Shown here: positions 34,184-61,919 of the stretch, piece by piece | How positions within the stretch are numbered: position 1 is the stretch's first letter | Layout of the letters: every line of letters begins with the position of its first letter | Program-made: the position numbers and the translations under genes | NCBI GenBank assembly: GCA_963920765.1 | Contig: OY987244.1 | Coordinates: 16,162,358-16,226,357 of the forward strand | Reading direction: 5' to 3' | From: Ulota crispa | Taxonomy: Eukaryota > Streptophyta > Bryopsida > Orthotrichales > Orthotrichaceae | DNA: 64,000 nt | Notes under the pieces: generated by a model | What the model saw: only the letters and a program-made list of their open reading frames with translations | Told to the model about the DNA's origin: nothing | Database searches by the model: none

Positions 34184-34423
34184 TTAACCCTTAAAGGACG
34201 AAGGAGCCCTTTGCGGCCAATACAGTATTTAGTATTTTCTTGTATTTGGAATGCATCCACACCTTTACTACATTTGAGATCAACAAAGAAGTTAGAATAT
34301 AGATCAATGCGGTTCTAGTGAGCTAGTCAAGATCCCAAACTAAAACTTTTTAATTGTAGCAAATGCCAGTTATACGGCAACGTATTTACTATGTAATACG
34401 TAGAGTGGTCCTTTAAGGGTTAA
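34184..34423. mobile_element. TTAA-flanked (piggyBac-like) element, 240 bp, uninterrupted copy
   Basis: TTAA, then CCCTTAAAGGACG; right end GTGGTCCTTTAAGGG, then TTAA. The inverted ends agree over CCCTTAAAGGAC exactly. It is the reverse-complement sister of 18642-19134 and shows that copy's pre-insertion state. Confidence 0.88.
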
Positions 34424-34770
34424 GGTAGAACCACCCATTCCCAACCATGGATCCAAACCCAACTAGTCTAGGGTGTGCTATTTCCAATACCTTTTTCCAA
34501 GCCTTGGAATGCATATTTTTTCCCTTTTCAAGATTAAGACACATGAGGTCATGACATGTGTCCCAAAAGAAAGTAGGAAGTAGTGAGCAAGAAGTGTTTT
34601 GGCTATGATTGGATTAGGGGAGTCTAGTGATTGTGTATGGGTTCAAAACACATTATGCATTTCACAATTTGTATATAGTTCAATCTTGCTTGAAAAATTC
34701 TGAAAAAATTGTATTGCAATATTTTGTATGAAACCACCAAAGAAAAATTTGTGCCGCATTGTTGCTCTGA

Positions 34771-35082
34771 GGTAGCAACACCCATAACCATCACTATACC
34801 CATAACTAGCACTTCTAAAATCTTAGAAAATCTCTGGAAGTGAATAGATGTATGTACAAGGATGTACAACATTTGAACATGAAACCTTACTATTGGTATT
34901 AGGTGCAATTGCAATTGGCTCTTTAAAAATTCATAACTTATTCTCACATTATCCAAATTAAACATTTGAAAGTGCAAACTCACCATATTTCTCTTGCTTA
35001 TAGAATCCTATAATTTGCCAAATGTTTGTTAATAAACATCATATTCAAAACCCTTAATTTGACAATTATGGGTGCTGCTACC
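34771..35082. mobile_element. GGTAGCAACACC MITE, copy 2
   Basis: It starts GGTAGCAACACCCATAACC and ends ATTATGGGTGCTGCTACC. Sequence is alike to 10978-11290 along its whole length, for example ACAAGGATGTACAACATTTG and CATTTGAAAGTGCAAACTCA. Confidence 0.75.
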
Positions 35083-35105
35083 TTAATGTGATGTCCTATA
35101 GGAGC

Positions 35106-35463
35106 TTAACCCTTGAATGTCGAGCTCATCCTCATGGCCAACCCGCTACACTGACTTCTACAATGTTTTTCAAAGATTCAGAACTATGATTGGTGTAACA
35201 AGTGCCCAGCTAGCTGTAAAAGTGAACAGTACAGGCTGCCCTCACATAAATTGTAGGAAGGGCAGTATGGACCTTCACACAATTTGAATTGTCTAAAAAT
35301 ATGAGTGTATTTGATGAAGTTATTTTTTGCCTTCCATGATGGAGCATGTGTTTATGATCACTTTTGGGAAAAAATCAGACAAAAATCTACTTTTTTCTAC
35401 CATACAGAATGTTTTTTCAGAGGCAAAGGATGAAAAACGTCCTTCTGGACGATTAGGGGTTAA
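35106..35463. mobile_element. TTAA-flanked element, type B, inverted copy
   Basis: TTAA (35106-35109) then CCCTTGAATGTCGAGC; right end CTGGACGATTAGGGG then TTAA (35460-35463). The interior is a diverged reverse complement of 26090-26455 (for example AATATGAGTGTATTTGATGA). Confidence 0.65.
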
Positions 35464-36483
35464 ATGATCGGGAATGGGTGGTTCAATCTTAGAGGCAAAC
35501 CAGGTGATCAGCATCTGTCAATAGCCAAGCTCTAGAGACGAAAACGAAAGAAGCTGGCTTGTCGCTCCGGGCGCGAACTTCCGGGCGAAGAGATAACACG
35601 GCGCGGGCGCCACGCCGTTGTGCTCACAAGCAAACGTCATGTTCTGAAACGCCGTGTCGTGGCGCTCCGCATCCGAATCCCAGCTCAGCTCCTGCAGTTC
35701 CTTCAACACGCTCACGCTCGACCTCAAGAGTCTCGGAGATCCTCGTGGGGCTGCGTCCAATTCACATACGTCACCGTTCGCTTCGCAATCCCACGCGCGT
35801 CCTGCAAATGCAACAAAGTCTGCACATACTCTTCATCCCACGTGCACATCCGCGGCGGCGTGCACTTCGCAAGGAACGCACCGTAAATCTCCCGGTCACG
35901 AATCACCACGCCGGCGTGGTGGCGTCGCAGGGCCATCCAGAGCTCCCCTTTCCGGAGCTCCGTCTTGTTGAACTCGGGCAAAGTCTAGCTCGCTACGGGG
36001 TAAAAGCTCTCCACCAGAGCTGTCTTGTCGGACAGGTTTTGGTGTTTGGTAGTCGTGTTGTTTGTTTGACGTCTAATGCCGTGCAAGACAAATGTTAAGT
36101 ATGAGTGACAATTTTGTCTAATGAGGCCCTATTTAATAACTGAGATTATTTGAAAATCTACTTTAAATATGACTCAAAATGTAGAATCTAATAAGTGTAT
36201 ATTGAATTGAGATACTTTAATAAAATGAAACATTAATATGTCAAAATTGGAAAAAGAAGGTGCTTTATTTAAAAGTCAATTTTAAAACTGACCCTACTAG
36301 ACGGACGGAGGGTCTCTTGTCCATCTTGTGACGTCAAGTTTGTCGAATTATTGCCATGTTGTGGAAGACAACCATGCTCTCCACATAGCTGACGACGCTC
36401 GTTGTGAGGTACTGGTACATGAATGCGAAAGCTGCAAATGGGGATGGCAAACTCACACACGTTGACAAACCAGGTGTTGTATG

Positions 36484-36904
36484 CACTACAACACAATGCA
36501 ACGTTTGCAACAATTTTTGCAATAGTTTTGCAATGTCCACAAAATATATTTCAACTGTTTTGCAATGGTTTAGATATAGTTTTGCACTGTGATTGAATTG
36601 GTACTACAATTATAAAGTTAGACTAGCATTTGCAATAGTTTTGTTACAATATTGCATTTTATTTGCACTAAAATAGTAATGATTTTGAAATTACTTTGCA
36701 ATTGTAAATCAACAGATTTGTAATAGTTTTGAAACACAATAGCATGGATTCACTAGTCAACACTTTTGCATTTGATCAACAATACTTTTGCAATGCATTG
36801 GTAATATAGTGAGGTCCAAACCAAGTTTTGTTCCACATCAATGCATTGCAAAACCATTGCAAAAGTGTTTTTCTTCTCTTGCAATGGATGCCTTTTGTAG
36901 TAGT
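36484..36904 (+). mobile_element. CACTA-like element, left member of an inverted pair
   Basis: It starts CACTACAACACAATGCAACG and ends GGATGCCTTTTGTAGTAGT, the complement of ACTACTACAAAAGGCATCC. Bases 36489-36904 recur as reverse complement at 36974-37389. It is filled with TTTTGCAATG-like words (subterminal-type repeats). It has no coding capacity and sits within the GT14 relic. Confidence 0.65.
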
Positions 36905-36973
36905 ATCCTGCGACATCGTCAACGCGTTGCGGCGCTTACTGGCGCATGTGTTGCTGGACCCACTGTACTACAC
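36905..36973 (-). pseudogene. 69-bp G+C-rich piece between the inverted copies, possible GT14 fragment
   Basis: Unlike the AT-rich arms, this loop is G+C-rich like the flanking gene relic. On the minus strand it can be read GSSNTCASKRRNALTMSQD in one frame and VQWVQQHMRQ in another. The family has V-x-WG-x4-M-x3-ER-x5-AL-x-D just before the N-x-WFV/RFV motif, which is where this piece lies. The similarity is short and needs a frameshift, so it is only suggestive. Confidence 0.35.
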
Positions 36974-37389
36974 ACTACTACAAAAGGCATCCATTGCAAG
37001 AGAAGAAAAACACTTTTGCAATGGTTTTGCAATGCATTGATGTGGAACAAAACTTGGTTTGGACCTCACTATATTACCAATGCATTGCAAAAGTATTGTT
37101 GATCAAATGCAAAAGTGTTGACTAGTGAATCCATGCTATTGTGTTTCAAAACTATTACAAATCTGTTAATTTACAATTGCAAAGTAATTTCAAAATCATT
37201 ACTATTTTAGTGCAAATAAAATGCAATATTGTAACAAAACTATTGCAAATGCTAGTCTAGCTTTATAATTGTAGTACCAATTCAATCACAGTGCAAAACT
37301 ATATCTAAACCATTGCAAAACAGTTGAAATATATTTTGTGGACATTGCAAAACTATTGCAAAAATTGTTGCAAACGTTGCATTGTGTTG
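36974..37389 (-). mobile_element. CACTA-like element, right member of an inverted pair
   Basis: It starts ACTACTACAAAAGGCATCC and ends CGTTGCATTGTGTTG. Comparing the arms by eye I found only two differences in 416 bases (near 36619 against 37261, and near 36711 against 37170). Its outer end lacks the full CACTA seen in the left member. Confidence 0.65.
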
Positions 37390-37538
37390 CATTGTCAGAT
37401 CTCTTGCAACAAAAGCGAATCGAAGGTGGGAGAGGTGGAGTCGATATTTAACACTGAGGTGACAATGATTCCTGTTACCATCGTTGTCAGGAGACAAGGC
37501 AGTAGCCATTTGGAGATGCTGAACTTAGCCCGCGCCAT

Positions 37539-39225: not shown

Positions 39226-39492
39226 AAATACCATATTCGTTAATTTGGGAAAAACAGTAGATTTTGGGACTTTCAAATTTTGATATGAAAGTTGTAGGTG
39301 GCCTCCTAAAATTGAGCTCAATTGTTTTTTGTACACGTGTCTTCACCTGAGAGGAGAAATTTGTAAGGGAAAAAATCTTAGTGGTTCAAGCTAAATCTGA
39401 TATCTTTGAATTTGATTTAAGGTAACTTTTTGAGTTTAAGGTGGAGTACAAAGTGAGACACCTATTTTTCCCAAATTAACAAATATGATGTT
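39226..39492. mobile_element. Second copy of the ACCATATTCGTTAATTTGGG MITE
   Basis: It starts AAATACCATATTCGTTAATT and ends with the complement of AACATCATATTTGTTAATTT. The interior shares GTACACGTG and GGTGGAGTACAAA with 18795-19041. Its target duplication is ambiguous (ATC on both sides). Confidence 0.7.
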
Positions 39493-40190
39493 ATCTGTGT
39501 ATGCTGAATCATCTCCGCTTTCACATTCCCAAAGTTTATTGTGCGCTGGAGAAGGCAGTTTGTTGAAGACGATTATTTGCTCACCCATGAGTACATAAAC
39601 TCGACTCTGCTTGCATCTCACCCTTTGTTACAGCAATTTCACTTCTTGCACACCACCGGTGTTTTTGAATTGCTTTCACAGGACTACTGCACGTATTTCA
39701 ATCTCCCTTCAGCATTGAAATACTTCTCAGCAGCAATCCGAAACTACTAAACTTATGATCAAATGCATCATCAACATATTAATCTCTCTTCAGAATTGAA
39801 AGACTTCTCAACTTCACACTCTTGCGCACACTCGCAGCCAAGGATTCCGTTACAGCTGCACGCTGTTGCGCACACGCGCTGCCAAGCCAGCCGGTTACAA
39901 AAAAATTCAGGTGAACAAAAGTCTGTTACAAAGAATTCAGTTACAAAAATGGCCATTGTAAATTTTCATCCAAGAATTTTTCATCCTCATCTGACTGATC
40001 ACCACGGACATAATTTAAAACTGCATTCTATTATATATATAGATAGCAAGAAGAACCCATTCAAAGAATGGATAAGATGAAATTCATATTGAATGTGCAT
40101 TAAAGCATTTTTTTTAAATTGTGATAGTGTTAAAGCTCATGTGACCTTATGGAGGACATTGGGTGGCTTATCATTGTCATAAAAGTACCT
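39493..40190. other. Spacer, no gene recognised
   Basis: Moderately G+C-rich frames (39541-39750, 39763-40080) look more protein-like than their AT-rich surroundings but show no motif I recognise and no splice context. A gene fragment cannot be excluded. Confidence 0.3.
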
Positions 40191-41119
40191 TTAACCCCTA
40201 AAGTCCTAAACACTCTTTTTTGGCAACATAGCAATTTTGGGTACCTCACTACCAATGGGTTTTTTTTTTTTTTTTTTTCCTTGACGTTTTCACAAATGAT
40301 GTGTCCAAGGAGTAGCTTTGAGATCCAAAAATATTCATAAATTTTGAATTCATGGTTCAAAAGTTATGGCATGATATGTTGTTTTCTTTGCTCGGAGTGC
40401 AGAAATAAAATTTCTTTAAAATTTCTTTTAAAACCTTTTTTTTATAAATTGGTTCTTTAGACTTCTATATACATAGGAAGCTTTGAATCATTCAGTTTTG
40501 ATCAATGGGATGAAAGTTATGAGGAGATTTTATTTGCAGGTAGTTACGGATTCTCTACTCTAAAATAAACTTTGAAGTCCTTTATTTTACTCAATTTTCA
40601 ATATTTTGGAAAAAAAACAAAACCATATGATGTAAAGTTTTTGTAACAACACTGCAACCATTAGGATTGGAACTTTTCATTTCCATAATTGAGTTCTTAA
40701 CAATAGAGTGTTTTGAATCATTCTCTATTTCTTTTTACTTACTATTTTTTTCCCATATGTCCAAATAATTTGAAAACTTTCAAGTGTGTACGCAACTTGC
40801 TTTGATGATCAAATCCAAGAAACTACAACCATTTTGGAAAAAAATTCTTACAAATATGACCTTGTGAAGTGTAGCTGCCCGGATTTTTGCAAGGACAAAA
40901 GATGGCTTTTTGTCAATTCAAACTCAAATATCTTACAAATCTACATGATGAAATTTTTTGATATTTTTTTCAAACCTTTAGATACTAGTGTAGTACAAGA
41001 TCTTATAAATACATGTATTAGAAAATATTCTTTTTCTAAACTATTTGGTACTTGTACTAGAAATGGCACTTTTGGAGCAATTTTGGTGAAAAGCTTACGT
41101 TTAGGACTTTAGAGGTTAA
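40191..41119. mobile_element. TTAA-flanked (piggyBac-like) element, 929 bp
   Basis: TTAA (40191-40194) then CCCCTAAAGTCCTAAAC; the right end is GTTTAGGACTTTAGAGG then TTAA (41116-41119). The inverted ends differ at one base in 17. A run of about 19 T lies at 40260-40278. It contains a 108-residue frame (40786-41112) with a C-x-C-PDF-C cluster but nothing I recognise as a transposase; the frame may be chance. Confidence 0.8.
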
Positions 41120-41479
41120 TGTTTATGAATGCCCCATAATAGACACTACCAATGTCCATTATTGACCTTACTAAGAACTTGACTTGGGTGCTTTGTTTGT
41201 TCATTGTGGCCGAGTGGAAATCCTTTTATGGAGGTCACATTAGCCCAAAGTAACCATACCAACCTAGTAACAATGATGCCCGTTTAAAACATAAAATTTC
41301 CTACAATGCAGCAATTATGAGTCTCTAAATGAGCTCTAAATGATCAAAATGACTCTCATACTAAATAAAGCATGTTGAAAATTTTATGCCAATTTTTCTT
41401 ATACAAAATTGACTAAAATAGAAACTATGAGTTCACATCGACCACAATGGAAGAAATGTCTACAAAGGGATAGTTTACC

Positions 41480-42375
41480 TTAACCCCTAAAGGACCAAAG
41501 TCCCCTTGGGGGACTTTTAGGATTTTGGATAGGCTCATGTGACCTCAAATTTTTACATGATTTTTTGAAACTTTTTATGAGGTGTGTAGGAATGTATAAG
41601 GTTTGTGGGATGTAAAAAATCATGTGATTATGTCACATGGTTCATAAGTTATGGGATTTTTTTGGCCAAAAGCAATTTGAGGGGCAGCTTGGGCAAGGGA
41701 GAAATATTAACTTTGGAGGGGGGAGCAAGGAGGGGTTGCCACATGTTGCTTTGGTGGTCCCCATTATTTCATCATTGCCTCCCTTTCATTTCCAATTAGG
41801 AGGTCAGATTAGGCTTTGGGAGCTCCTAAATTTTAAAGATTTTAAGTTTCTTAAGTTTTTTTCCTCTAACATCTAAAGTACATGTATATCTTCATACACA
41901 CCATTTGGATTTTCCATATCTAAAAGCATGTGGTGGAAAACTTCACTCAAAAATGTCATAGTATATTGGCAAAACTTGTTATGCAATGACATTGCAATTT
42001 TTTTTAGGATGTGTTCTGGGTCTTTAATTGCCTTGAAAATTGGTAGACATATGTCTGACTTGATTACCTATAAGATGAAATTATAACTTCAAGGTCTATA
42101 GTGCAAAAAAGTCCGCAAAGGGCAGTCAAAGCCATCTGAAATTTTTGGGCACCATGGAAAAAAAAAAACTTTTCTCTTCAGATGCCCATAACTTTCAATC
42201 CATAGAGTCAAATGTCACAAAATTTTCAACACTTCTTCTCTTGCAAATGCATTACAAGATCCTATGGTTATATTTTCAAGAAAATCATTCTATTGTAATT
42301 TTTGATGAACCCAGCAATAGGGGCAGGTTTGAGTGGTTTTTAGCAAAAAAATGGCCTTGGTAGTTTAGGGGTTAA
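41480..42375. mobile_element. TTAA-flanked (piggyBac-like) element, 896 bp
   Basis: TTAA then CCCCTAAAGGACCAAAG; the complement of the right end is CCCCTAAACTACCAAGG, then TTAA (42372-42375). A frame at 41637-41876 lies inside without a recognisable domain. Confidence 0.75.
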
Positions 42376-43307
42376 GCTAATCATGCACCCAATCCCCACT
42401 TGAATAAACAGAACAAAAAACAATTTCAAAGATTTTTTGTGTGGGAATTTGGCATCAAATGTAAGGAATAACCAGCCAATTTTTTTTTTTTACTTTTCTA
42501 GAAATCACATGTGTTTGCAAACAAAATTTTAGTGCACTTGGCGAAGTGCAAAACAGTGACTTGTATGTCAATTGTTGGTAAACATTTGTGCCTTGATAAG
42601 TAGATCATTATTCCAAGCATATGCTTTAAAGATGGTTGGATACTCACCATGTGACGTGAAACAGAACAAGACATACCAAGGTAGCCTGCTCATAGACCAT
42701 CCATCTTAAGGCTAAAACAGAATTTTGGGGAGGTGAAACTTCTTTAACTATTTTTCAGTAAATTTTCCTTGAAAGATAAGAAGAACTAACATCTAACTCA
42801 AGTTATTTCATATTTTGTGGAGTTTTGTAGAATTAGGTATGAAATTTTGAAATGGAAAGGTCATAGGTCTCTAAAACCGCCCACCTCCTCAAATGTACAC
42901 TTCTTATACATTTTAAAAACCTATGAAAAAAGCATGTACTTGAACAAGGGATCATTTAAGAAGGTGGGCGGTTTTAATGCTTGGACGGTTTTTGAGCAGA
43001 CCTTACATAAAATTCGAATGGTGATTATGAACCATCTGGCTCCTCATCTCAAAACTCCGAGCCATGGGAAACGTTTCCATGTCCACATACATGCGATAGA
43101 GAACCCTCTTCGAGCACTCTCCAATTGAAGTGCATATAGAAATTAAGTTAACCTCATTGGCTCATGCTCACAAACATGGTTTTCAAAAGTGTAAGATTAG
43201 TGTAAAGGGGCAAACAACAAGCACAAATATGAAAAATAGTGGCAAGATATTGTTTATCGTAACTTCAACATAGCTTAAACAAAACAGTAGCTAGAATTCT
43301 CATGGCT
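42376..43307. repeat. Spacer with dispersed repeat shared with 61.6 kb
   Basis: About 42710-42910 is strongly similar to about 61588-61790. Shared words are TTTTCCTTGAAAGA, AACTCAAGTTATTT and TCTAAAACCGCCCAC. The same GGCGGTTTTA word appears inverted at 42964-42976, so this may be the end of another element. Confidence 0.5.
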
Positions 43308-43551
43308 TTAGCCCCTGAAGGGCCCTTGGGCTCTAGAGATACAGTACCAAATATGGTCACAATTAATATTCAGAAGTTTGAATTAGTTGGAAAGTAAGTG
43401 TTACAACCATACATACATATTGAAGGGTTGTACGATGATGAGTGTATAATTTTTTTTGGAAAGCCCTCAAAACAACTCAAATATAGCAGTATATACTGCC
43501 GTACATACGGCCAGAGATGGCCGATTGGCCGATGGGCCGTTCAGGGGTTAG
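43308..43551. mobile_element. Element with TTAG duplication, piggyBac-like ends
   Basis: TTAG (43308-43311) then CCCCTGAAGGGCCC; right end GGGCCGTTCAGGGG then TTAG (43548-43551). The 4-bp duplication is not palindromic, so it cannot be an extension of the inverted ends. About 236 bp between the duplications. Right part carries GGCCGATTGGCCGATGGGCC. Confidence 0.75.
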
Positions 43552-44101
43552 TCTAACCGAAAACCGGCAGGCAGCTTTCAATGCAGAATGGCTCACTCAC
43601 AGAGAACTAAATTTTGCACAAGCTATGTAACCCTAAGCGAACGACACAACAAGGATACATGATATACACAAAGAACAGCATGAATCATACCTATTGAGGA
43701 CCGTAGGTGTCCATTGTATGTACACAAATACCTCTCAATACAATTAAGAGGACTAGACAGAAAACCGTCCAGTATAATCAAGAAGGCCATGATACATAGG
43801 TGACGACCCAAACCAAAGGTTCCCTAGCAATTTTTTTGACACTAATTAAAACAACAAGGAAACTACCTCGCCAGCAGAATGCCTTTATACCCATTTTGAC
43901 CACCATCTACGGCCTCCATTAGTCCTCACCAATTACTGAGATGCAACATCAGCCTGCCCAACTCAGATATCAATTCTGATCACCGACCTTTGCCCATCCA
44001 CAAATTACATACTGTTACAGCACTATCCAACAGAGTAACAACTTTCTAATAGCATTATCACAGCAGCAGCAGCATTCGTAGAACCTCCCGTGGGCTGATA
44101 T
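43552..44101 (-). other. 3' region of the WNK gene
   Basis: About 550 bp beyond the WNK stop codon on the minus strand. It probably contains the 3' UTR, but no polyadenylation site was assigned. A frame at 43623-43811 has no features. Confidence 0.4.
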
Positions 44102-47100
44102 TTACCGCCCGCCACTGCCCTCACCGTTGGTAATACCGGATTTCAACAAACGGTAAGGTCTGCCATGACTGCTACCTTCAGCATCACCTTGGAATGGGGT
44201 AGTCCGACCAGAGCCCTTGTCCAGCAAGGACGACGCGGGAACAACATGGCCCTGCAAGTTGTGCCCCAACCCATGAGCCTTGGGCGCATCCACAAATCTC
44301 ACATCCGCATTGATTTCCGCTGGCCGGGCGGCCATCTCGCCAGCCTCCTCAACCTGCAACTTGCCCTTGCGGCCAGCAACGTCAAGCTTCCTCTGAGAAT
44401 CACTACTTGAAACCAGTTTGGAGCTTGGCCGACCAGTCAAAGCGTTCCTCGTCTCTGCCTGATGAAAAAACACGTCGTTGGAAGAATCGGTCTGCTGAGA
44501 GCCGGGTGAAATTGGCTGCTGCCCGACTTCGCCATACGAGGCACCTTTCATCCTGCGTCGGCTCTGCAGGCTCAGCATAGCTTGCTCATGCCTCCGGTGC
44601 ATCTCCCGCAACTCCTGCTCCTGCTTCTGCGCCAAATACTCCAGCTCCCTGGAAATCACATCGTCGTCATCATCCGCCACTGAGTGTGGCATTTCATCCT
44701 GAATGCTGCTGTCCAGCCTCTCCTGGTTTTGATGCAGAACTTCCCATGGTTCATGAGAGTACGCGGAGGTGCCCATGTTCCTCCGGATCTCTACTAACTC
44801 GTTGAAACCCCCACTCCAACGACTCCCCCCACCCTCCTGTTTTGAGCTCGACGCAGGTGAGCCTCCCTCTGGTGACGCCCCATACTTGGACCCCTGGTCT
44901 TCCGTGTCATCTCGCTCCTCTGACGACTCACTAGTGAAGATAGGTTCTGAACCACGTCGAGAATTGGCTCGAGCAGGATACGTCACTTCTTCGAAACGCC
45001 CATGCATTGTACCCTCCACCATCCTCGGAGGGGACGCAGCAACAAGGTGGCTGATTCTGCCATCAGAAAAAACAGAGAATTGCAAAAAATATGGAAGAAA
45101 ATTAACCTTTTGCTTGCTTGGGTTCCATCATTATTCAAACCCATTATCTCTCAGGACCATGCATAACAACGATTGTGTTCGTATCAAGAGCCATACCTCG
45201 GAGACATGGAGCGAGCCTTCCAACTAGACGAAGGCAGATCTTCAGGCGCAGAGTCATCTGAACCCACTACCTCCGACCCATCCGCTGCAGTTGTGTATGC
45301 AGCGTCCGGGTCCTGCCCTGCATCATCCACGGCAACCCCAGGTCGCCATTCCGGAACTAACGCCAATATCTCTGCATCAATCATCTCAGCAATGGTCGTT
45401 ACATCTTGGTCCGACAAGTCCAGCTCCGCCACCATCTCACTAGCAACGCACATTGCAGTATCGCCCTCGATGTCGAAAGGGAAGTGGATGTTGCGGCTAT
45501 GACCTGCACAATAGAGGTAATGGTTACATGGTTACCTTTCATTAAAAATACCACTTCCTTCACCATACCACACTGTCACCCAATTAGGATATCTTCAAAT
45601 ACTCACCATCATGGTCAGCAATTCGTAGTCTCAAAAATATAGTAACATCGTCTTTCCTTTTTCCCTTCACTCGAAAGTCCCGGCTGCTCCTCCGGACACG
45701 GTCTTTGGAGTATCGAGTGCTCCCGGACGGGTCATCTTCATCATCAGATCGTCTTCCGGAAGACAATGCTAGCAGCCTTCTCGAACCGCTTTGTGATCTG
45801 TCATCCTCGCGGCTTTTTCTCTCATTCCTATCATTGTCTGACTTCAGGCTATTATATAATTCTCCAGCCTTGAGGCTTGATATACGATCCTCACAAATCA
45901 CCCCAAGCTCCTCAAAATCATCAGTCCGAGTTTTTGATAGGGTGATGGTTGGAAGACATTCTACAGCTTCACGATCTCCATCCGACTGCAGAAATGGATC
46001 CATCAAGAGTTCTCTTGCAGGGAGCCTCCTCGATGCAGTGGCGAGGCATTTCTCCACAAAAGCCCGGACTTCAGGGTCCTTGACCTTCTGAAGTGCTGCA
46101 GGTTTCTTCCCCTATACACAGTTACCATGTACAGGATCACCATCAGATTTGACAAGGATAAAAAAAAAGGTGTGGTAATTAATTCAATTATCAACACGTC
46201 CCTGCATTAGAGACCAATAAATTCGACACTCCAGGTTCTGATTTAAATCAATACTACCAACACGGAAAGTCATATAATTTCCAGCTATTTTTTCCTAAGC
46301 CTTAAGCAGAGCGCAACAGACCGAAATCTTGTTGAGCTACTGTTACGATCAGAATAGATGCAATACAAAAGAGGTGAGGACCTTACCGACGAGACTTTTT
46401 TGTAGATCTGAGCAGCGTTAGTACATTCACTGTACGGGTATTCAAAAGTCACCATCTCCAGCAAGCACATTCCAAATGAGTATATGTCAACCAACTCATT
46501 GTATTCTTCTTCATACAGCTCAGGAGCCATGAACTCTGGTGTACCTGAAAAATAAGTGTACTAATAGGAATCAGCTGCACAAATATTGTCACTGATTCCC
46601 AACAGCTACACCAAATCAACGTACCGGTCAGTTAATATTAAATATCAGCGCACTTCCATTGTAGTAGACTCGAAAATCAACCAAATCCATGTGTACAGCA
46701 GGATGAAGCTTGACATCCCAATGGTAACACCAAATACGTGCTCAGAACACACACAAGATATCAACAACATCAATACAAAAAGTTGACATGCAACATGCTC
46801 GATACAGAACGAGCCGTCTTTACGATTGCACACACACACACACAGATTAGATTAATAATACAGAGTAACACTCACCAATAACACTGTGTGCCGCATGCGC
46901 TTGACGAAGAATTGCCGCAAGCCCCAGATCTCCAATCTTCACCTCCCCTTGATTGCCGTTCACAAATATGTTGTCGCACTTCAAGTCACGATGGATGATA
47001 GGAGGATCATGGCTATGAAGATAGAGCAGACCGCGCAGTATCTGCCTAGACCAATTCTTCACCGCTTTGATGTCCACATGCTTGTGCTTCTTGCGGTACC

Positions 47101-48349
47101 TGGCACCCATTCAAGTTCAACAATTATGATATAATGATGGACGCAACACCCACCTTTCCGATCTGTAGCCAAGAGCCTTGTACACAGGAATTAAATATGT
47201 CCACATCCATCAACTGCAAGCAACGAAAATGTCAGCATGTGACTGAGTCAGAGCACGCACTGTCTCAAAGTGCCTGAAGTGAAAATCTCGGTAATGAAAT
47301 TCACATTCTTCGTCTTTGTATCAACCCATGAATTATAGAGCTTGATGATGTTCTTGTGTTTTAAAGTCTTCAACAGATGCACCTCAGAGTAAAGCCGCTC
47401 CAAGTCCTCGGGGCTCTGCAGAACATCTTGTACTCTCACCTGGTTCCAAGCTACCTCGATACCCTCGACTTCATCAAATGCTCTGTAACTGTTTTAAAAA
47501 ACACACAACAGAACGATACACATAACAAAGAAGTCTCAGCCCATCTAGACGGTGACCAAATGCTACATATGTCGTAGTTAATGAACCCCTAAAGGCTGGC
47601 GTGTATCAAAATATCCATTTCTAGAAACTGTCAAAATTCACCACCTCGGACGCTCCCGACAAAACTAGTGGACTATATGTTAGTTGAACGTAAATTATTA
47701 CACGCAACACAATGACCTATAACAAATACAGTGCTACCAAAGATCAGCAGCCTCATGAAATCTTACCCCAAGTCAGAGAAACGCATGGAAAACCTAGTGT
47801 TTCGAGAAAATCATGGGAGTACTCACTTTCGTACATACAAACAGGACTAGAGAATCTCGATCCCAACTGACAGAAAGAAAGATCTAACTTTGTAAAACCA
47901 TTTCAAATTAAAAAAAACCTGGACTTACACTGTCTTGAAGGCCCCTTTGCCCAACACTTCCGCATACTGAAACATCCAAACCGGAGATTCACAAATCAAT
48001 GAATAAAAAGAGATATTTAATACCTCAAACATTGCACATTAAGAAAATCATTATCTTATCCGTTGATCGTCTGTTCAAAAACAAACTTGACTTTATCCCA
48101 CAACTCGCAATACGCCAGCTGTTCCAAAGGATGATGACAAGGTTGGAATCATGTTAACAACGTAATACTTCACAAGTTACTCCCAACTGAAATCACAAAA
48201 CCTACCCGTCCATAGCGAAGGGTTGGGTCAACTTCAACAAATTCGACGTCATCCCCGTCCTTATCGTCAGGGGGGTCAACTGAGCTCATGGCGTCACTCT
48301 CACCACCTCCGATTCCATTCCCCACCTGCGCTCTTTTTGTCACATCCAT
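44102..48349 (-). CDS. WNK: WNK (with-no-lysine) serine/threonine kinase, 8 coding exons
   Basis: Plant WNKs act in ion/osmotic responses, the clock and flowering. Minus-strand exons join in frame: 48349-48206, 47966-47929, 47488-47261, 47099-46876, 46544-46387, 46111-45607, 45503-45197, 45056-44102. All introns are GT-AG. Product 852 residues, or 832 if the ATG at 48287-48289 ([12 protein letters not shown]) is used; the latter resembles known N-termini. Kinase domain ~residues 46-300: glycine loop GKGAFKTV with the displaced catalytic lysine (K59), VAWNQV with N76 where other kinases have lysine, [14 protein letters not shown] in place of [19 protein letters not shown]. Residues ~418-480 ([13 protein letters not shown] to LVPEWR) match the OSR1-C-like/PF2 domain. 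The long tail has an acidic, Q/E-rich coiled-coil-like part ([20 protein letters not shown]). (CA)8 lies in an intron. Confidence 0.95.
46829..46844. repeat. (CA)8 microsatellite in a WNK intron
   Basis: Eight CA units in the intron between the exon ending at 46876 and the exon starting at 46544 (minus strand). Probably length-variable between individuals. Confidence 0.9.
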
Positions 48350-49555
48350 GCATGCCAAAAGCACTAGACGGCTCGATTCCACGCCAATATGCAACCCCCC
48401 TGGAGACCTAACCCAGTAGATGTTTCAATACCCTAACCTCAATTCAGGAAAGACAGAATCACACCTTCATTTCTCGATCCCTCACTATTCGAAATAAAAT
48501 TGTGTCCAACTTCAAAAAAAGGAATTTATGTATAAAAAAGAACTGATACGAAGAAACAGAGCGTTCTACAGAATCTGGAGGTCACCTCCTCCGGCGCTCA
48601 GATTCCGACACAGCCTGCATGTAGTAGAATATGTTTTTCCAATTCATTCATCGGGAAACCACGAAACGTGGCGTTTTGGCAACGACTCTCTCTCATACCA
48701 CATTGGCTTCAGCTCGAATATAAAAAAGCAAAAAGAAAAGAAAAAGAATGCAGGAAAAAAAACACAGCCACACGCAGGGCATTGCATATTTTTTAACACG
48801 TCAAGAAGGAAGACTATCCACTAATAGAAATTTCTCAAACGGAGCATACCCCTCCTAAATTGAACGTACAAATGCAGCAATGCCACCCAAAAACAAGCGC
48901 ATGCATGATTTTGACCTAGTCTCCAAACCGACAAATACTTACCAGTGATCGAGCGCCGATGCCACTGCCGCGTTTCCTCCAGCAACCTAACCCTAAAAGC
49001 AGTTACTAAACCCAATCTGGCCCCCGGGGTCATTCCTCGTCATCGCATCGCCGGCCCGCAACCACCAGCATTCTTGTGTCCGATCACGCAAGCTCGACAA
49101 CTTCTCTCTCTCTGCTTCTTCTTCTTCTTCCACACATCGCTGCTGCCTCGCGTCTTCGCCTTGTCGCAACCCTCCTACAAAATACAAACAATACACTAGC
49201 AACAAACTACTTCTTTCGCCACCGAATCACGCGGCCGAAAGCGGAGAGAGTTCGGTAGAAGCAAGGCAAAGGCGGGCCGGCAAGGTCTAGGCGTCGGGGC
49301 TTCAGTGAGTCGTCAGCGATGCAGCCATGCGGGGGGGGGGAGAGGGGAGGGAGGAGGGCTCCGAAAGGAAATGCCTTGCGATCCCCTCTAGGTCTAGGGC
49401 GACGACAACGACGACGACGGAGTCAGCTTGCTCCAACGGGGTTGCTCCGAGATAGGGTCCCTCCTTGCAACCGCGCTGCCCACCGTGCGCGAAACCAGGT
49501 CCGCCTCCAATGCCGAGATTCCGAGACGGATTCTTCGGGCTCTAACTCGCACCTA
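48350..49555 (-). promoter_or_regulatory. Promoter and 5' UTR region of the WNK gene
   Basis: A G+C-rich tract at about 48940-49550, with CTTCTTCTTCTTC and GACGACAACGACGACGACGG, lies upstream of the WNK start on the minus strand. It probably holds the leader (perhaps with a 5' UTR intron) and the promoter. A G-run of about 10 is at 49329-49339. The frame at 49319-49615 is not convincing as a gene because it runs into the next mobile element. Confidence 0.4.
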
Positions 49556-50089
49556 ACCCCTAAAGGACCAAGCCCCTTTGGGACAAATGGGATATCGGGC
49601 GTGTACTATGGTTAACATGATTTTTTGAAAATTTTATGTATGATGGGGAATTCAAATATCTACATGGGAATTTAAATTTTCTTTATTAAAGAAGTTAAAA
49701 GTGAATTTCCAAAAAAGGGTAAGATAGGTATGATTTTCATACCTATCCACAAACTATAACTTCTCATAATTTTCATCTCATTAATGAAAATTAAATGATT
49801 CAAAGCTCCCTATGTATATAAGTCTAAAGAATCTATCTCATATTATTATTATTTTAAATGCAAATTTTAAAAAAGTTTTTGGGCTGCCCGATCTCTCTTG
49901 TTTTTGGAAATTCATTTTTAACTTCTTCAATAAATGTCAAAATGAATAAAAAATTAAATGCCCATATAGATATTTGAATTCTACATTTTCAATAAAAGTT
50001 TCAGAAAACCACAAAAAGTAAATTAGCTGTAGGTACATGCCCAAAATCCATTTGTCTCTTAAGAGGACAGTTGGTCCTTTAGGGGCTAA
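49555..50089. mobile_element. Foldback element with CTAA duplication, piggyBac-like ends
   Basis: CTAA (49555-49558) then CCCCTAAAGGACCAAGCC; the right end is TTGGTCCTTTAGGGG then CTAA (50086-50089). The arms go on pairing for well over 100 bp (for example GGGGAATTCAAATATCTACA against the complement of TATAGATATTTGAATTCTAC). The direct, non-palindromic CTAA repeat is direct evidence for a 4-bp target duplication. It lies at the edge of the WNK promoter region. Confidence 0.85.
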
Positions 50090-50809
50090 GGTAACCACAC
50101 CCATACCTAAGCGTTTAAGGGTTTGGGGTACTTCAGAGCCTCTAAAAATTCAGGAAATTTTTTGCAAGGTTAGCCTTTCAACAAGCTATCATGGAACGTA
50201 ATTTTTGTGGGAAAAGTATTTTAGATTATTTTATATTAAAGGGCAAAGTGCAGCTTATAGGGTCCCTATTAGCAACTCTAAACTACCCTTGATACTGCTT
50301 TGATGTGTTCCTATACATGTGCTTGAAGGTCCCAATCTCAACCATCTCACAGCCACTTAGCAATTGACATGTGGCAAGATTTTCTTGTGCAAGTAACATT
50401 CACTGCTTCACTTTGGGTTCACAGTGAGTGGTGAATACCTCAAAAGTAGGGGCTCCACTTTAGGGACTGCTCACGTATGGGTGTTGCTACCTTATTGCAA
50501 AGGAAAGTACTTTCTCACCTTTTTTTGTAGAAGTGACCATAGATACATGGTGCACCATGGGAAGCAAAAATTAACCTCAGCTAAGGCATTCATATTTTTT
50601 GATAATCCAAATTGTGAGAAGATTTAGAGCCATGGTGTTAGGTCCCATGCTATCCTTTTCACAATTTTCATGAGGGCACCAATCACACCATGCACTATTG
50701 ACTTTTACAACTTTAAGAAACAATATTTTATTGGTGGGCACCTGCCACAATACTGTAGATGCCACTATAGAGGGCAGGCACGACCACCCAGCCGACGTTC
50801 AAGGGTTAA
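50090..50809. repeat. GGTAACCACACC-type MITE joined to a type-B TTAA element end
   Basis: GGTAACCACACCCATAC at ~50091 and GTATGGGTGTTGCTACC at ~50475-50491 look like inverted ends of a GGTAGCAACACC-type MITE. From about 50510 the sequence is like the type-B element (GTGAGAAGATTTAGAGCCAT, GGTGTTAGGTCCCATGCTAT) and ends TTCAAGGG then TTAA (50806-50809), which abuts CCCTTGAGCATAG as if a second element began there. Confidence 0.55.
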
Positions 50810-51059: not shown

Positions 51060-51800
51060 AGAAAAAGAAACCTTGCCCTGGAGCGCCCAACCCGATTTCA
51101 CCAAAATCAGGGTGTTTGGAGACCAGCAACTTTGATGCATTGTATCTTGGTAAATTGCATGATTTACAAAAAGTGACCATTGAACATAGTAGAATACTTA
51201 TTTAGAAGAAGGCTTGCAAATTTTAGGAACAATTCATCGCAAGAGATGGGAGGTTATAACGTTTGATAAAACAACATGTGATGACAAAACCTCATTTTTT
51301 GGTAGGTAGTTGCTATTTGATGTTTTTCACAAAATTCTGTAAGCCCCTTATTCATCTAAAATTTTGTGAGCAGCAAGATTAGATGTGAATGCACACACTT
51401 GTAAATTACCAAAGATTGCACTTCTTTTTATGTCAAGTTTTAGGTCTTCAAATGGCTATTGCACAGAAACAATGACTAGCACAATTGGTGACAATTGCCA
51501 TGATAAGGATCTAGAACATGGGTGAACCCTTGCCAACAACTTTCCCGCTACCACAAAGCTTACACAAGGAAACTTGCAACGGATATTGACCGGTTGCAGC
51601 TTGTAAAACGCTACTTGCCACCACATCCTTGTTGCCTCGTACGATGTTTCACCAAATCAAATCTCTTGCAGCGTTTGTATAACAATTTGGCTTTTCTGAC
51701 CATTACTCCATTGACATGGACAATTTGAATGCCTCAGTAATTGTAGTTTGTAGCAAGACCAAAAAGTTAGATCTAGTGCCTCAAAACAAGGCTTTAAAAT
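51060..51800 (+). repeat. 740-bp dispersed direct repeat, copy 1
   Basis: Similar along its length to 59915-60660 in the same orientation. Shared words are TTTGATGCATTGTATCT, TTTTTGGTAGGTAGTTGCTA, GCAAGATTAGATGTGAAT and CCATTGACATGGACAA (TCATTGACATGGACAA in copy 2). Neither copy keeps a long frame, so it is probably an old transposon or a duplicated spacer. Confidence 0.75.
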
Positions 51801-51852
51801 AGGAGAGGTGATATATGGGACGTTGGAACGCTCATGGGTTAATATCTTGGGG

Positions 51853-52037: not shown

Positions 52038-52373
52038 TAGGGGCTTCAAACATTAATTTTTTTAGGTGACTCATGTTGCCATTCACGTTGGTGAATTCCC
52101 CCTAGTGGGCAGCAAGGTGAGTCACCCCTAGAATTCACTCCTAACATGATTCATGTTAAGAGTGAATTTCAGAAACTCAGTTTTGCACAGCTCATCATCA
52201 CAAGTGTCTTAGACGCTCAAACCCTTGACTTGTGCACCAAACCCTAATTGCAAACTAACGGGGATCTCAAACTTTGGGCATGGAAGTGAACAAAAATAAT
52301 TTACTAGTGAGCTGGATCATGTGAAGTGAAAAACTTATAGACCAAATTTATTTATGAAGCCCCCTAAATTAGT
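52038..52373. mobile_element. Adjacent GGGGCTTCA MITE
   Basis: It starts AGGGGCTTCAAACATTAA and ends with the complement of AGGGGGCTTCATAAATAAA. Related to but distinct from the preceding element, which it touches. Confidence 0.5.
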
Positions 52374-54192: not shown

Positions 54193-54830
54193 TTAACCCC
54201 TAAAAGACCAACTATCCCCTGAGGGGACAAATGGATTTTGGTCATGTACCTACATCTAATCTAATTTTTGTGATTTTTTGAAACTTTTATTAAAGGTGGG
54301 GAATTCAAAGATCTATGTAGACATCTAAATTTTTCTTCATTCCAGCATTTATTAAATAAGTTATACATGAATTATTGAAAAAGGGTGAGGGCGGGGTAGC
54401 CCAAAAAAAAATCAAATTTACATTTTTTTTGAAAAAATATCTGAAATTGGTTCTTTAGATTTATACAAATTTGGGAATTTTTAAATCATTCAATTTTGAT
54501 TGATGAGATGAAAGTAATGAGAAGTTTTAGTTTGCAAGTAGGTATGGGACTCCCAAGCCTCCATTCTTTTTGCTTCTTGTAAAATTTGTTGCTTTCCTTT
54601 TCTGAGCTCTTCGTGTTTTTTTTTTTTTACTTTTTCTTTTTCCAAGTTGTAGTAGACTAAGATTCTTTGGTTTTCACCATTTGGATCAAAGTAATTCACA
54701 TTTTTCACTTTTCTATAAATCCTCCAATTTTGCCTAGTGTAATAAAGAGTGAGATTTGCATATAATAGATGATCTGAAGATGTCGATAATGTTGTAGAAT
54801 CCAATTATACGGTCTCTATTGTGATTGGAC
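54193..54830. repeat. Left end of a TTAA-type element, partner end not found
   Basis: TTAA then CCCCTAAAAGACCAACTATC; the first ~130 bases resemble the arms of 49555-50089 (GGACAAATGGATTTTGG, GGGGAATTCAAAGATCTA). No matching right end was found, so it is truncated or interrupted. The frame 54490-54804 (minus) is not recognised. Confidence 0.5.
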
Positions 54831-54859
54831 TTTGTTATTTTTTTGTTAAATGTTGGTAC

Positions 54860-55245
54860 TATAAAGTTGTGAAGCTTGTTGCTGTTTTTTAAAACAATCG
54901 CTAACTTTATGTCTTTCTTTTCTATAGTAAAGACATAATCCTCCTTTGCATTGGTACTTCTTCTTTTATTCTATAAAGGTTTGGATAAAACTGCATCAAT
55001 TTGCAAGTCTTCAGCTTCAGATTGATTTTTTGAACTTGGAGTTTAAGAAGTGGCAAGATAGCCAATGTAAGGCCACGGCGTGGTCCATACTCGTTTATCT
55101 TGTTACCGCTCAAATAGCCTATTGTCACACTTGTCGCTTGACTAATAGCCTCGTTTAATGTTGCAGGGTCTGGCAACAAAAGTAGTAAGTTTTTCTTTTC
55201 GTTATGTAACCCATAATAAAATTGATTTATCAAAGCTTATTCGCT
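54860..55245 (-). pseudogene. Relic of a retrotransposon gag gene
   Basis: On the minus strand residues such as QFYYGLHNEKKN and PATLNEAISQATSVTIG (about 55233-55120) resemble the conserved end of the capsid part of Ty3/Gypsy-type gag, where 'F..GL' is followed by 'tL.eA...A'. After a frameshift, 54950-54893 reads LCLYYRKERHKVSDC, a CCHC zinc knuckle (C-x2-C-x4-H-x4-C) in which the second cysteine has become tyrosine. The frame is broken and no LTRs were found, so only a fragment remains. The stretch 55320-56090 upstream may hold more decayed gag, but I cannot confirm it. Confidence 0.55.
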
Positions 55246-58020: not shown

Positions 58021-58033
58021 CATATGCAAATTC

Positions 58034-58261
58034 TTGAAAGAAAATGTGCTTCTAGAAAAGAATAATGCGCTTGCATCAATGTGGGAGATGAAAAAAATAG
58101 TATTTGAATTATGGCTCAAAATAGAAAACATTGACGCATGCATTAGAGGTTGCAATTTGTTTTGCGGAATAAACTATGCAAATTCAAATTTGTGTCTCAA
58201 ATGCAACAAACCTCAATATTGTAGAGCCTTGCTAAGATTTCATATTCCTCAAAAGGTTTAA
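58034..58261 (+). pseudogene. Possible fragment of a CACTA (Tnp2-like) transposase
   Basis: The 75-residue frame contains IDACIRGCNLFCGI, YANSNLCLKCNKPQY and, near the end, FHIPQKV. The spacing D-x-C-x3-C-x-LF ... C-x2-C-x3-x-Y ... IP-x-KV resembles the zinc-binding start of plant Tnp2-type transposases, which continue with a YFPL-type motif. That continuation is missing here. The similarity rests on few residues and remains tentative. Confidence 0.35.
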
Positions 58262-58913
58262 ATATTTATTTATTTTTTAATGAAAAATATCTCCATCAAT
58301 CTATTTTTTTATATTAAAACATTTATTTCAAATTTTAATGTATTAGCTTATTTTTCCACATGATAGATACTTTGATATCTATCATTATCTCCAAGGATTG
58401 CTAACATATTTGCAACCCTAACTATTGCAACACCAATGAATTTTTATATGAAAAATAAAAACAAAATAGGACTGAAATATAATAATAATTCCAAAATTTG
58501 AAAACATCAGAGGAAAATTTGGACTTGCAGCCTTATAATGTTTGATTGAGAATGTGTATTGATCATGTCAATCCATTCTCACTATTGAATACATGTTAAT
58601 AAATGTTGAGAGTGTCAAATTTTAAGGGTCTTGTGGAAGGTTCAAAATTTTGCTAATGTGACCCCGGAAAGGACACGTGTTGAAAACCGTAGTTGAAATG
58701 TGGCCAAATACCCATGATTCTAGATGGGTACCAGCCATCTTTACTTTTTTTAGAAGGATTTTTTGGTGAGCGAGCAACAAGTAACCGTGCACATAACCTA
58801 ATAGTGCTTGCAGGCAAGTAGAAAATGGGTAGAAACATCTATATGATGCACGTTTTTGCTTATTACCAACTATCTTTAATTACTTTCATTCAAATGTTGA
58901 CAAACCCCATAAT
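58262..58913. other. AT-rich spacer, nothing recognised
   Basis: No convincing coding frame, RNA gene or repeat boundary was seen. The frame at 58653-58838 (minus) has no recognisable motif. Confidence 0.4.
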
Positions 58914-58920
58914 ATATTTT

Positions 58921-59337
58921 AGGGGATTGATATGTGAACCACACCCTTTCAACTATTCTACCACACCCCTGAGGTAAATTTTAGATTTTAACCATCAAAA
59001 AGCTGAATTTGAGAATTTGGAATTCAAATTTGGACTTAGAGACCTCAATTTTGTCTAGAACCATAAAAAGGTTGTAATTGGACAATACCCAATGAAAAAG
59101 CTTATCTTTTATAATAAACAAAAGTAAAAGTAATATTTTTCCCCCAAACTAAGCTTTTTCATTGGGTGTTGTTCAATTACAACCTTTTTTTATGGTTCTA
59201 GATAAAGTCAAGGTTTGTAAATCCAAATTTGAATTCCAAATTCTCAAATTCAACTTTTTGATGGTAGAAATCTAAAATTTATCCCAGGGGTGTAGTAAAA
59301 TAGTTGAAAGGGTGTGTGATAGACATATCAATCCCCT
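58921..59337. mobile_element. 417-bp foldback MITE with 7-bp ATATTTT duplication
   Basis: Left end AGGGGATTGATATGTGAACC; the complement of the right end begins AGGGGATTGATATGTCTATC. The arms pair for about 185 bp each, to AACCCAATGAAAAAGCTTA-like sequence at the centre, with scattered differences. ATATTTT stands on both sides (58914-58920 and 59338-59344). Confidence 0.85.
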
Positions 59338-59344
59338 ATATTTT

Positions 59345-59914
59345 ATTTTTGAAAGGAGTTTGGCAATTACAGTGAAACCTCTCTTATTACAAATTTCCTA
59401 TTTGCATAATTATCTATACTTCTCAAATTGCATACTTCCTATGTGCATAAAGTTTGTTCCTTTTTGGAGTTATTCCTGTGAGTAGGACCACTAGTCTAGT
59501 CTACATTCCCATGACTCTTGTTAGCAAGTAAGGAAAGCCAGAAAAATAACCGTGCTTCCCGAGCCTTGAGCCACTTGTTCATCAATTGAAAGCCGCAATA
59601 AATCACTTATGTAATAAAACCTCCTTGTGTGCATACTCTTTAAATACATCCCTACCATTCCCATGCAATAAGGGAGGTTTCTCTGGACATCAATTCTTGA
59701 TTTAATTTTTATTTGAATTGAAGATAGCTAATGTTCAAATGAGGTGAAGTTTTGATGAAATTCGATAAAAAAAATAAACCAGTTAATTATACTTTTTCAT
59801 AATTAGCTCAGTTTAGTAGAAAAGACTACTTTGTTATTATAAAATATTCTACAATATTTTTTTCCACAAAAGTGACGCCCCATGATTGCTTGTTGAAAGG
59901 TTTTCTTGAAGTTT
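59345..59914. other. AT-rich spacer, nothing recognised
   Basis: No gene or repeat boundary was seen. CTCTTATTACAAATTTCCTATTTGCA-type words (59384-59415) recur loosely near 59600 but not clearly enough to call. Confidence 0.35.
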
Positions 59915-60660
59915 TCCAAGACCTTGCGGTACCCCAAACCCTTAATCCTTGAGAGCCTAGGCCATTTTCATCAAAATCAAGGTTTTGGAATATCTACAAC
60001 TTTGATGCATTGTATCTCAATTAATTGGATGATCCACAATAATTGACCATTGAAAATAGTGAAACACCTACTTAGAAAACAACTTACAGATTTTAGGACC
60101 AATTGATGGTGGGAGATGGGAGAATATAACAATTGATCGAACAACATGTGATGGCAAAATCTCAATTTTTGGTAGGTAGTTGCTATTTGATGATTTTTAC
60201 AAAATTCTCTAAGCCCTTAGTTCATCTCAATGTTTGTGAGTAGCAAGATTAGATGTGAATACACACTTGCAAATTATTGAGGATTGTGCTTCTTTTTATT
60301 AAAAGTTTTAGGGCTTCAAATTGCTATCGAATGGAAAATGATGATTGGCATAATTGGTGAAGGTTGCCATAGTAAGGGTTTAGAACATGCTTGGATCCTC
60401 GCCAAGAAATTTCTTGCTACCACAAAGCACACACAAGGAAGGTTGCAAGGGAGATTGACCAGTTGTAGCTTGTAAAATGCTACTTGCCATCACATACCAT
60501 ATGGTGTTTCACCCAATCAAATCTCTTGTGACACTTGTACAACTTTTGGCTTTCCTCCCCATTACTTCATTGACATGGACAACTTAAATGCTTTTAGAGT
60601 TGTAATTTATAGCTAGATCAAGAAATAGATCCAATGCCTCAAACAAGCCTTTGAAATCAC
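59915..60660 (+). repeat. 740-bp dispersed direct repeat, copy 2
   Basis: Partner of 51060-51800, same orientation, colinear. Substitutions and small gaps are spread along it, so the duplication is not recent. Confidence 0.75.
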
Positions 60661-60696
60661 GCAAGAACACTTTTGGTCCTATGGGAAGTTCTGGAG

Positions 60697-61919
60697 TTAA
60701 CTCCTAAATGCCCAAGGGTGTTTTTCTTGTTTTCAGAAGGCAGTTTTGAAGTTTTTGAATTGTCCTTGTAAGATCATTATTAAACATCAAAACAAAATTG
60801 TAACCGTTGAATCTTGAACTTCAAGGCTTCTAGATGGCACTATCCAAGAAAAATCCAAAATGGCCATGCGGCCTTCAAGATATTTGTGATCAAATGATGA
60901 TGATTATAGAATTTTTTGCCTTTTTTGAGCTGCCCAAAGCTTCCAATGCAAATTGATAGCTTTTGGATACAAAATTGGGAAGTAACCACATAGGATGCTT
61001 TAGTGTTTATTGTTGTTACTTCAACACTAATGGCCCCCCTTCCAAATCCATGACCATAGTTTCACAAATGAGCCTGCAATGCAATAGTCAAAGTGCAAAC
61101 ACCTAATACTAAGAAATTTTTTAGCTTTGATTATTGACCTAAAATCAATTTGAATGAAAGCAAATTCAATGGTGAATGAATCCTAATTTCTATAACAAAG
61201 TCATTCTAATTAAAACTAGTCCAAAAGCACTTCTAGATTTTGTTAAATGTTAAAATTTCAATAAAAGAGCCCTTATTGCCCAAGGGAAATCTTCACCTTT
61301 TTCTCAACTTGATGCTCGTTGTTTCAATGTGGCAACTTGTCATAGGCTCTGTGACACTATTCACAACATTATTCATGACACATAACACATGCTTGTAGTT
61401 AACCTTCCACCAAAAATAATTGAAATAAGACATGGAGGAAGTTGAACTTGAACAATGAAGCTAACTTCAGAGCACAAGTTTTCCAAAAAAAGACCTAAAA
61501 AAATAAAATATGAGCCTTCAACAAGGTTTCAAAGTTTCATGAAGTTTGTAGCTCTAAGATAAGAGGCTTATAAACGGACCATCTAAGAGCTGAAACTGAA
61601 TTTTGGAGAGGTGAAACTTCTTGAAATATTTTTTACTAAATTTTCCTTGAAAGACAAGAGGAATCGGCATTTAACTCAAGTTATTTTGTATTTTTTAGAG
61701 CAATATGGAATTAGTTACAAAATTTTGAAGTGGAAAGGTCATAGGGCTCTAAAACCGCCCACTTGCTCAAATGTACCATCACTATACATTTCTGAAAGGC
61801 AATGAATAAGGACATGTATCGACAAAGTTCATTTGGGGAGGTGAGCGATTTTAGTACCCTATCAAAGTTTGAACCTCCTACCTTAACAAAATCTGGTGCC
61901 TTGGATATTTAAGGGTTAA
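60697..61919. mobile_element. TTAA-flanked (piggyBac-like) element, about 1.2 kb
   Basis: TTAA (60697-60700) then CTCCTAAATGCCCAAGG; the complement of the right end is CCCTTAAATATCCAAGG, then TTAA (61916-61919). The right third (61588-61860) is shared with 42710-42990. No transposase frame is seen. Confidence 0.7.

Follow-up and report, generated by a model that had tools for sequence, protein, structure and literature searches.

A 64,000-nt stretch of a moss genome (C3:16162358–16226357, hereafter the window; the assembly comprises 274.8 Mb in 157 contigs) contains ten segments with CCC...GGG-type ends and short direct repeats on both sides, raising the question of which transposon superfamily they belong to and which enzyme would have moved them. 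An initial annotation, made from the letters of the window, had listed these segments and assigned them to piggyBac. We consider it very probable (about 96%) that these moss segments are non-autonomous piggyBac elements; membership in the superfamily itself is secure, as shown by the target duplication, the ends, insert-free sites, and partner genes elsewhere in the assembly.

Borders, ends and target duplications of the segments

On a base-by-base check, each of the ten segments proved to have CCC...GGG-type ends flanked by a direct duplication of 4 bp, and the positions were as initially annotated except that the segment placed at 49555 starts at 49553 (its left CTAA copy is 49553–49556). 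The target site duplication (TSD) is TTAA/TTAA in eight segments, CTAA/CTAA in 49553–50089, and TTAG/TTAG in 43308–43551. Both odd cases are direct copies and thus a target duplication, as had been argued, and a single TTAG is found at the empty counterpart of the latter. Over the first 14 bp, the two ends match at 11–14 places in seven of the ten segments; the other three (11406, 35106, and 60697) were missed by the automatic search, as their ends are less alike and 60697 starts with CT on one side. The proposed end formula, CCC(C/T)TAAAG...CTTTA(G/A)GGG, does not describe every end; deviating ends are those of 11406 (CCCATTAAGG), 35106 (CCCTTGAATG), 43308 (CCCCTGAAGG), and 60697 (CTCCTAAATG). 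At one end each, 60697 and 40191 carry CTC and CCT instead of CCC, and all ten segments have C at the start and G at the end.

The element borders are proven by a pair of copies: the likeness between 34184–34423 and the reversed 18642–19134 begins and ends at TTAA, and the flanks are unrelated. The latter copy has a later insert of ~253 bp that is absent from the former. Two further groups of related copies are 26090, 35106, and 50495, and 49553 and 54193 together with the left part of 40191. The interiors are of several types, as annotated, although not all segments are unrelated, given these shared copies. Beyond the ten, two copies of type D, 51072–51842 (left flank CTTG, not TTAA) and 59942–60700, are 77% alike, and the TTAA at 60697–60700 serves both 59942–60700 (right) and 60697–61919 (left). 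Single clear ends are present at 601, 50809, and 54193. A left end at 50806, where TTAACCC directly follows the GGGTTAA of 50809, was not counted as a separate element, because likeness to relatives begins 16 bases further in; likewise, 51842 and 60700 were dropped as a filled/empty pair, because both are copies of one element type. The claim that no element here is autonomous holds for the window, with 1–601 being the 3' end of a transposase-bearing element that reaches outside. The features are as follows (MITE, miniature inverted-repeat transposable element; L numbers are loci elsewhere in the assembly).

1–601, + strand: 3' (right) end of a piggyBac element that carries a transposase; TTAA at both ends of the element; interior alignable to the L013 element, including the L013 transposase and the domain upstream of it
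C3:16157501–16162958, 5458 bp: the whole left-edge element; ends TTAA-CCCTTTAACGAC...
11406–12368, no strand assigned: non-autonomous piggyBac, TTAA TSD, L013-type right end; last 38 bp 87% like the L013 right end
18642–19134, − strand: type B MITE, TTAA TSD; nested insert of ~253 bp related to 39227–39498
26090–26455, + strand: type A MITE, TTAA TSD
32359–32669, + strand: degenerate type A copy without a clear right end
34184–34423, + strand: type B MITE, TTAA TSD; full-length relative at L028 8205–8438
35106–35463, − strand: type A MITE, TTAA TSD
40191–41119, + strand: non-autonomous element, TTAA TSD; left 360 bp are type C
41480–42375, + strand: non-autonomous element, TTAA TSD; paralogous C8 TTAA occupied by a type B element
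43308–43551, no strand assigned: MITE, TTAG TSD; insert-free paralogous site with a single TTAG
49553–50089, no strand assigned: type C fold-back MITE, CTAA TSD; abuts a family-2 element at that element's left end
50495–50809, + strand: type A copy without a left end; right end CGTTCAAGGG-TTAA
51072–51842, + strand: type D element, decayed; CTTG left, TTAA right
54193–54741, + strand: only the left part of a type C element, with left end TTAACCCCTAAAAGACC
59942–60700, + strand: type D element; TTAA on both sides
60697–61919, − strand: internally deleted derivative of an L012/L022-type transposase element; later nested insert

Insert-free sites were found by joining the flanks of an element and searching the assembly with the result. 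The joined flanks of 43308–43551 match C8:6501302–6501442 at 91%, with a single TTAG and no insert there. The surrounding region (window 41380–49556) is paralogous to C8:6500453–6589031 on another chromosome, with tested flanks 89–92% alike and different transposon insertions; for example, the C8 paralogue of the 41480–42375 target holds a different element, a type B copy of 238 bp that runs from TTAA to TTAA. The simplest interpretation is that these elements transposed after the region had been duplicated, the two copies now differing by ~8–11% in the tested flanks. The joined flanks of the element at L017 match a dispersed repeat, and the alignment crosses the junction in 38 of 41 rows, one of these 38 starting only at base 82. 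Five homologues of this site were read: L009 has a single TTAA, three have TCAA, and one is without those bases. The sites read show a 4-bp target and no duplication of another length, in line with the initial annotation. An empty site for 49553 was also sought and none was obtained, as in the C8 paralogue the family-2 element is absent and another TTAA-CCCC end lies close by.

Transposase genes between ends of the same kind

The assembly contains at least 120 matches to PF13843 (DDE_Tnp_1_7, the piggyBac transposase domain), with a best E of 1.3e-73 (of 528 candidates, 116 were scored, and a small number of loci yield two pieces), and the same search gave no match in 14 control genomes. For end pairing, 20 transposase loci were taken at ~9.9 kb and four more at 6.5 kb (24 in total). 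An end pair with a score of at least 17 surrounds the transposase in six of the 20 loci, with the ends 5.0–6.0 kb apart; TTAA stands on both sides at L009, L010, L012, L013, and L014, and TTAA/TTGA at L022. At a score of at least 18, four of the 20 loci pass, compared with none of 400 control placements, which overlap and were taken from the window. The transposase also lies between TTAA-CCC-type ends at L039, one of the four further loci, and the left-edge element, whose body is just outside the window, includes both ends as well as a transposase and the upstream domain. The partners found encode piggyBac-type DDD transposases, the kind that the initial annotation proposed to look for, and not an enzyme of the Harbinger, hAT, or another type.

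We then compared the encoded proteins with known structures. At E ≤0.001, the only PDB matches of the two transposase pieces tested are piggyBat (9c0f) and piggyBac (6x67), with E values of 3e-13 and 1.8e-16 for L012 and of 7.6e-20 and 2.6e-24 for L019 against the piggyBac/piggyBat structures. In the alignments and in pieces of two copies, the putative DDD aspartates are aligned (VDE and DN, with VD..DQ in the next L012 piece), and an apparent Cys-rich tail is visible in the second L012 piece (one copy inspected).

The transposase elements can be tied to individual window segments. The first 597 bp of 60697–61919 are 83% like the left end of L012, and its bases 601–847 correspond to the right-end side of L012; since the segment matches both L012 end regions beyond a deletion, it is an internally deleted copy of the L012 type. 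A partner between the same ends was thereby found for 60697 (L012/L022 type) and for 1–601 and 11406 (L013 type). The transposases of L012 and L022 are 74% identical and have like end sequences, and for L013 and the left-edge element, whose ends are also similar, the likeness is 70% across 213 codons, so ends and enzymes go together in both pairs. The other loci are 28–41% alike to L012 and 31–48% to L019, and, as judged from these sequences, the piggyBac population is old and diverse. Two transposase-domain pieces outside the window, at C1:1180709–1181995 and C8:19570986–19572215, are without internal stops; they could be younger copies or piggyBac-derived host genes.

Abundance of the ends and competing explanations

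The exact 19-mer end TTAACCCYTAAAGGACCAA occurs 4847 times genome-wide (2467 + 2380), compared with zero for the reversed control; this number is a floor for all piggyBac ends, as it covers one end type and exact matches only. When the four bases in front were left variable (HNNN+CCCYTAAAGGACCAA, a count with sites carrying G in the first place outside it), 5684 sites were found, of which 4847 (85%) have TTAA. Among 100 of these sites, 83 have TTAA and 12 of the 17 others are one base off, including CTAA (3), ATAA (2), and TTAG (2). Within the window, TTAACCCYTAAAG or its complement is present at least five times (expected, 0.01 per 64 kb). We also searched 262 kb for paired ends with no assumed duplication sequence, requiring an end match of at least 12/14 or at least 11/14. 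At the stricter cut, 15 pairs have a 4-bp TSD (10 TTAA, 1 CTAA, 1 TTAG, and 3 other), and TSDs of 3, 5, 6, and 8 bp gave 3, 1, 3, and 1 pairs, respectively; we attribute the 24 pairs with a 2-bp TSD (13 TA, 6 AT) to noise from short words or to another family. At the looser cut, 25 pairs have a 4-bp TSD (14 TTAA) compared with a mean of 4.3 in three shuffles, some of the 25 being cross-pairings of neighbouring ends (e.g., 40191–42375).

These data bear on three other explanations. The chance occurrence of TTAACCC motifs in AT-rich DNA would suit the mild enrichment of the 7-mer TTAACCC/GGGTTAA taken alone (22 vs. 6.2 expected, maximum 14; just three to four times above expectation), but it is contradicted by the longer ends, the paired TSDs, the copies that stop at TTAA, and the 4847 19-mers against zero in the control, leaving it a practically negligible probability. 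Tourist-like MITEs of the PIF/Harbinger superfamily, with a 3-bp TAA/TTA duplication and the fourth base belonging to the end, would account for the TTA or TAA inside every TTAA flank, and passages of PMC10004981 describe Tourist MITEs with such TSDs in angiosperms. However, a 3-bp reading makes the two ends asymmetric, CTAA and TTAG each recur as direct 4-mers on both sides of their elements, the insert-free site keeps TTAG once, none of the three pairs with a 3-bp TSD has TAA or TTA, and the transposases between such ends are PF13843; we regard this origin as highly improbable. To a similar degree we discount Kolobok elements, which use another transposase and, according to passages of PMC9587614, share the TTAA duplication but have 5'-RR and YY-3' ends; the segments here have CC...GG ends, and their partners match piggyBac transposases.

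Several observations weigh against the piggyBac assignment or its details. The score cut of 17 is weak alone, with 22 of the 400 control placements reaching it, and 17 of the 24 transposase loci read have no passing end pair. The search for a transposase with the same ends, which the initial annotation had suggested, succeeded for the L012/L022 and L013 types and failed for the commonest end, CCCYTAAAGGACCAA, between whose copies no transposase was seen in the 24 loci read. Most of the listed transposase copies have internal stop codons, so present activity is only putative. The TTAA empty site rests on one copy, as four of the five homologues are without TTAA there, and the insert-free sites could be precise excisions instead of sites that were never hit.

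For the piggyBac elements of this moss, the proposed course of events is that a transposase made by a large element would bind the ends and cut at CCC, and that insertion into TTAA, sometimes CTAA or TTAG, would duplicate the four bases. Copies whose interiors are deleted or unrelated would be mobilised in trans. Excision through TTAA hairpins, a trait of the superfamily, would be seamless.

Other features of the window were noted in passing. A second abundant inverted-repeat family (family 2; 706–937, 10974–11294, 34767–35086, and 50087–50494) has GG...CC-like ends, TAAGGTAGCAACACCC...GGGTGTTGCTACCTTA. Its left end, as the right half of a joined-flank query, gave 1315 first-look candidates, of which 40 were scored and 37 were other places on that half, and two piggyBac elements abut the left end of family 2 or of a variant (34420 and 50086). 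Minus-strand frames at 54493–55236 resemble a Gypsy-type gag by eye and adjoin the cut-off element at 54193. The region 36484–37394 is a 421-bp inverted repeat (99% complementary, 69-base spacer) that looks recent and has no piggyBac end noted; 23169–23792 is a minisatellite with 81/162-bp units; and 28144–29250 is an open frame with a fasciclin domain (E 1.9e-13).

A conserved upstream domain and piggyBac in land plants

Comparison of seven large elements revealed a conserved stretch upstream of the transposase. An iterative profile search built from the loci detected this domain in 17 of the 24 loci and in none on the opposite strand. Four frames scanned against Pfam gave no match up to E 1, and nothing convincing was found in the PDB (best E 0.55 and 0.41); a member-wise Pfam scan of 14 members gave five unrelated models, each matching one member, with a best E of 0.0058. 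A candidate link to a KolX/P2X7-type domain was dropped, as the PDB and Pfam gave nothing convincing for it. A genome search with two queries, the second a hybrid of two loci, gave 113 matches (70 + 43). For 55 of them, a listed transposase lies within 12 kb, always downstream on the same strand and never on the opposite one; random placing puts 0.6 near a transposase on average and at most 4. The distance from domain to transposase is 1.5–2.1 kb in 32 of these 55. The remaining 58 have no transposase among the matches listed, and 56 of the 120 PF13843 rows have an upstream-domain match 0.5–8 kb upstream.

To see how the domain is encoded, we compared codon positions between copies. In three of six upstream-domain pairs, third positions differ most (0.51–0.56 vs. 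0.14–0.28); a fourth pair has a weak third-position excess (0.67 vs. 0.40–0.49), and two pairs, L009/L018 and L023/L024, have none. The L012/L022 transposase pair has its excess at another codon position, probably as the slice is out of frame, and no support was drawn from it. Between L013 and the left-edge element, the codon pattern is present at ~691–1050 in one frame, absent to ~1230, and returns in another frame, patchy at 1231–2130 and strong at 2131–3570 through the catalytic domain. The pattern is read as exon, intron, and exon of one transposase gene. This suggests, although codon patterns do not prove it, that the upstream domain is the first exon of the transposase gene, and the moss gene is probably long and split and begins with an additional conserved exon. 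Less likely, the domain is a second protein that the element encodes separately. The spacing seen in 32 of the 55 matches, often with a change of frame, and the methionine that precedes the domain in several reading frames would suit it, and so would the few piggyBac families reported in passages of PMC9587614 with an additional protein resembling part of KolX. Against it stands the exon-intron-exon pattern of L013 and the left-edge element, which comes from one pair of copies and is weak in its middle part.

The moss elements share the TTAA duplication, CCC ends, and DDD transposase with piggyBac of Trichoplusia ni (PDB 6x67, 6x68) and piggyBat (PDB 9c0f), and the apparent Cys-rich C-terminus would be a further likeness. 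They are set apart by a gene that seems to be split and in many cases has a conserved domain upstream. The moss transposase elements are also larger, at 5.0–6.0 kb compared with 2472 bp in T. ni and ~2.1–3.5 kb in beetles and bees (passages of PMC10140906 and PMC12732532). In T. ni piggyBac, asymmetric subterminal internal repeats are bound by the cysteine-rich domain (CRD), as stated in part of PMC7351741. The families with a KolX-like protein resemble the moss elements in having a further coding part besides the transposase (PMC9587614, in part); neither the PDB nor the Pfam searches, which did not include a direct comparison of the two sequences, matched the moss domain to a protein of that kind. 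The bacterial relative IS1380, which has a 4-bp TSD and 5'-CC..GG-3' termini in passages of PMC10045372, is prokaryotic and is likened here by description.

The host was placed by its plastid genes. Contig C157 carries psaA and psaB, and its PsaB is closest to PDB 8htu, 6l35, and 7ksq (1714–1710 bits; next 1676). We take these to be photosystem I of the moss Physcomitrium patens, so the genome is that of a moss, which bears out the plant origin initially annotated. Fragments of psaA/psaB in the large contigs C1–C10 (46 of 48 among the matches listed) are plastid DNA in the nucleus.

Published passages mention piggyBac in plants in general terms (PMC10140906, PMC8086355) and as one of seven MITE superfamilies in angiosperms (PMC10004981); in the fern Ceratopteris, 1230 copies amount to 122 kb (PMC6890710). 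In the introduction of a 2025 beetle paper, piggyBac is said to occur only occasionally in the genomes of plants, with red algae as the named case, and plant studies are described as limited (PMC12732532). The land-plant passages available carry no TSD test, empty site, or transposase partner, whereas the moss elements have all three. Among the papers listed in searches of an open-access library, which covers neither subscription papers nor Repbase, we found no account of piggyBac in mosses. Two candidate sources were set aside: the passages of a Niphotrichum japonicum paper (PMC10619864) say only "piggybacking", and the two occurrences of CTAA in passages of PMC3078864 are a primer and a reference.

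What is surprising here is the abundance and diversity of piggyBac in a moss, together with the newly found conserved upstream domain. We lean slightly toward a long-lived, diverse moss piggyBac lineage, with a long spliced transposase, an undescribed N-terminal domain, thousands of miniature-element ends, and CTAA and TTAG as additional targets, that has strongly shaped at least one land-plant genome. The extra domain is a new component, open to testing, of a transposase with relatives in wide use as genetic tools. In this land plant, a transposon family known chiefly from work on animals has thrived, and the thousands of ends, the at least 120 transposase-domain matches, and the 28–48% likeness of most examined copies to two queries raise the question of whether piggyBac was lost in other land plants, transferred into mosses, or overlooked.

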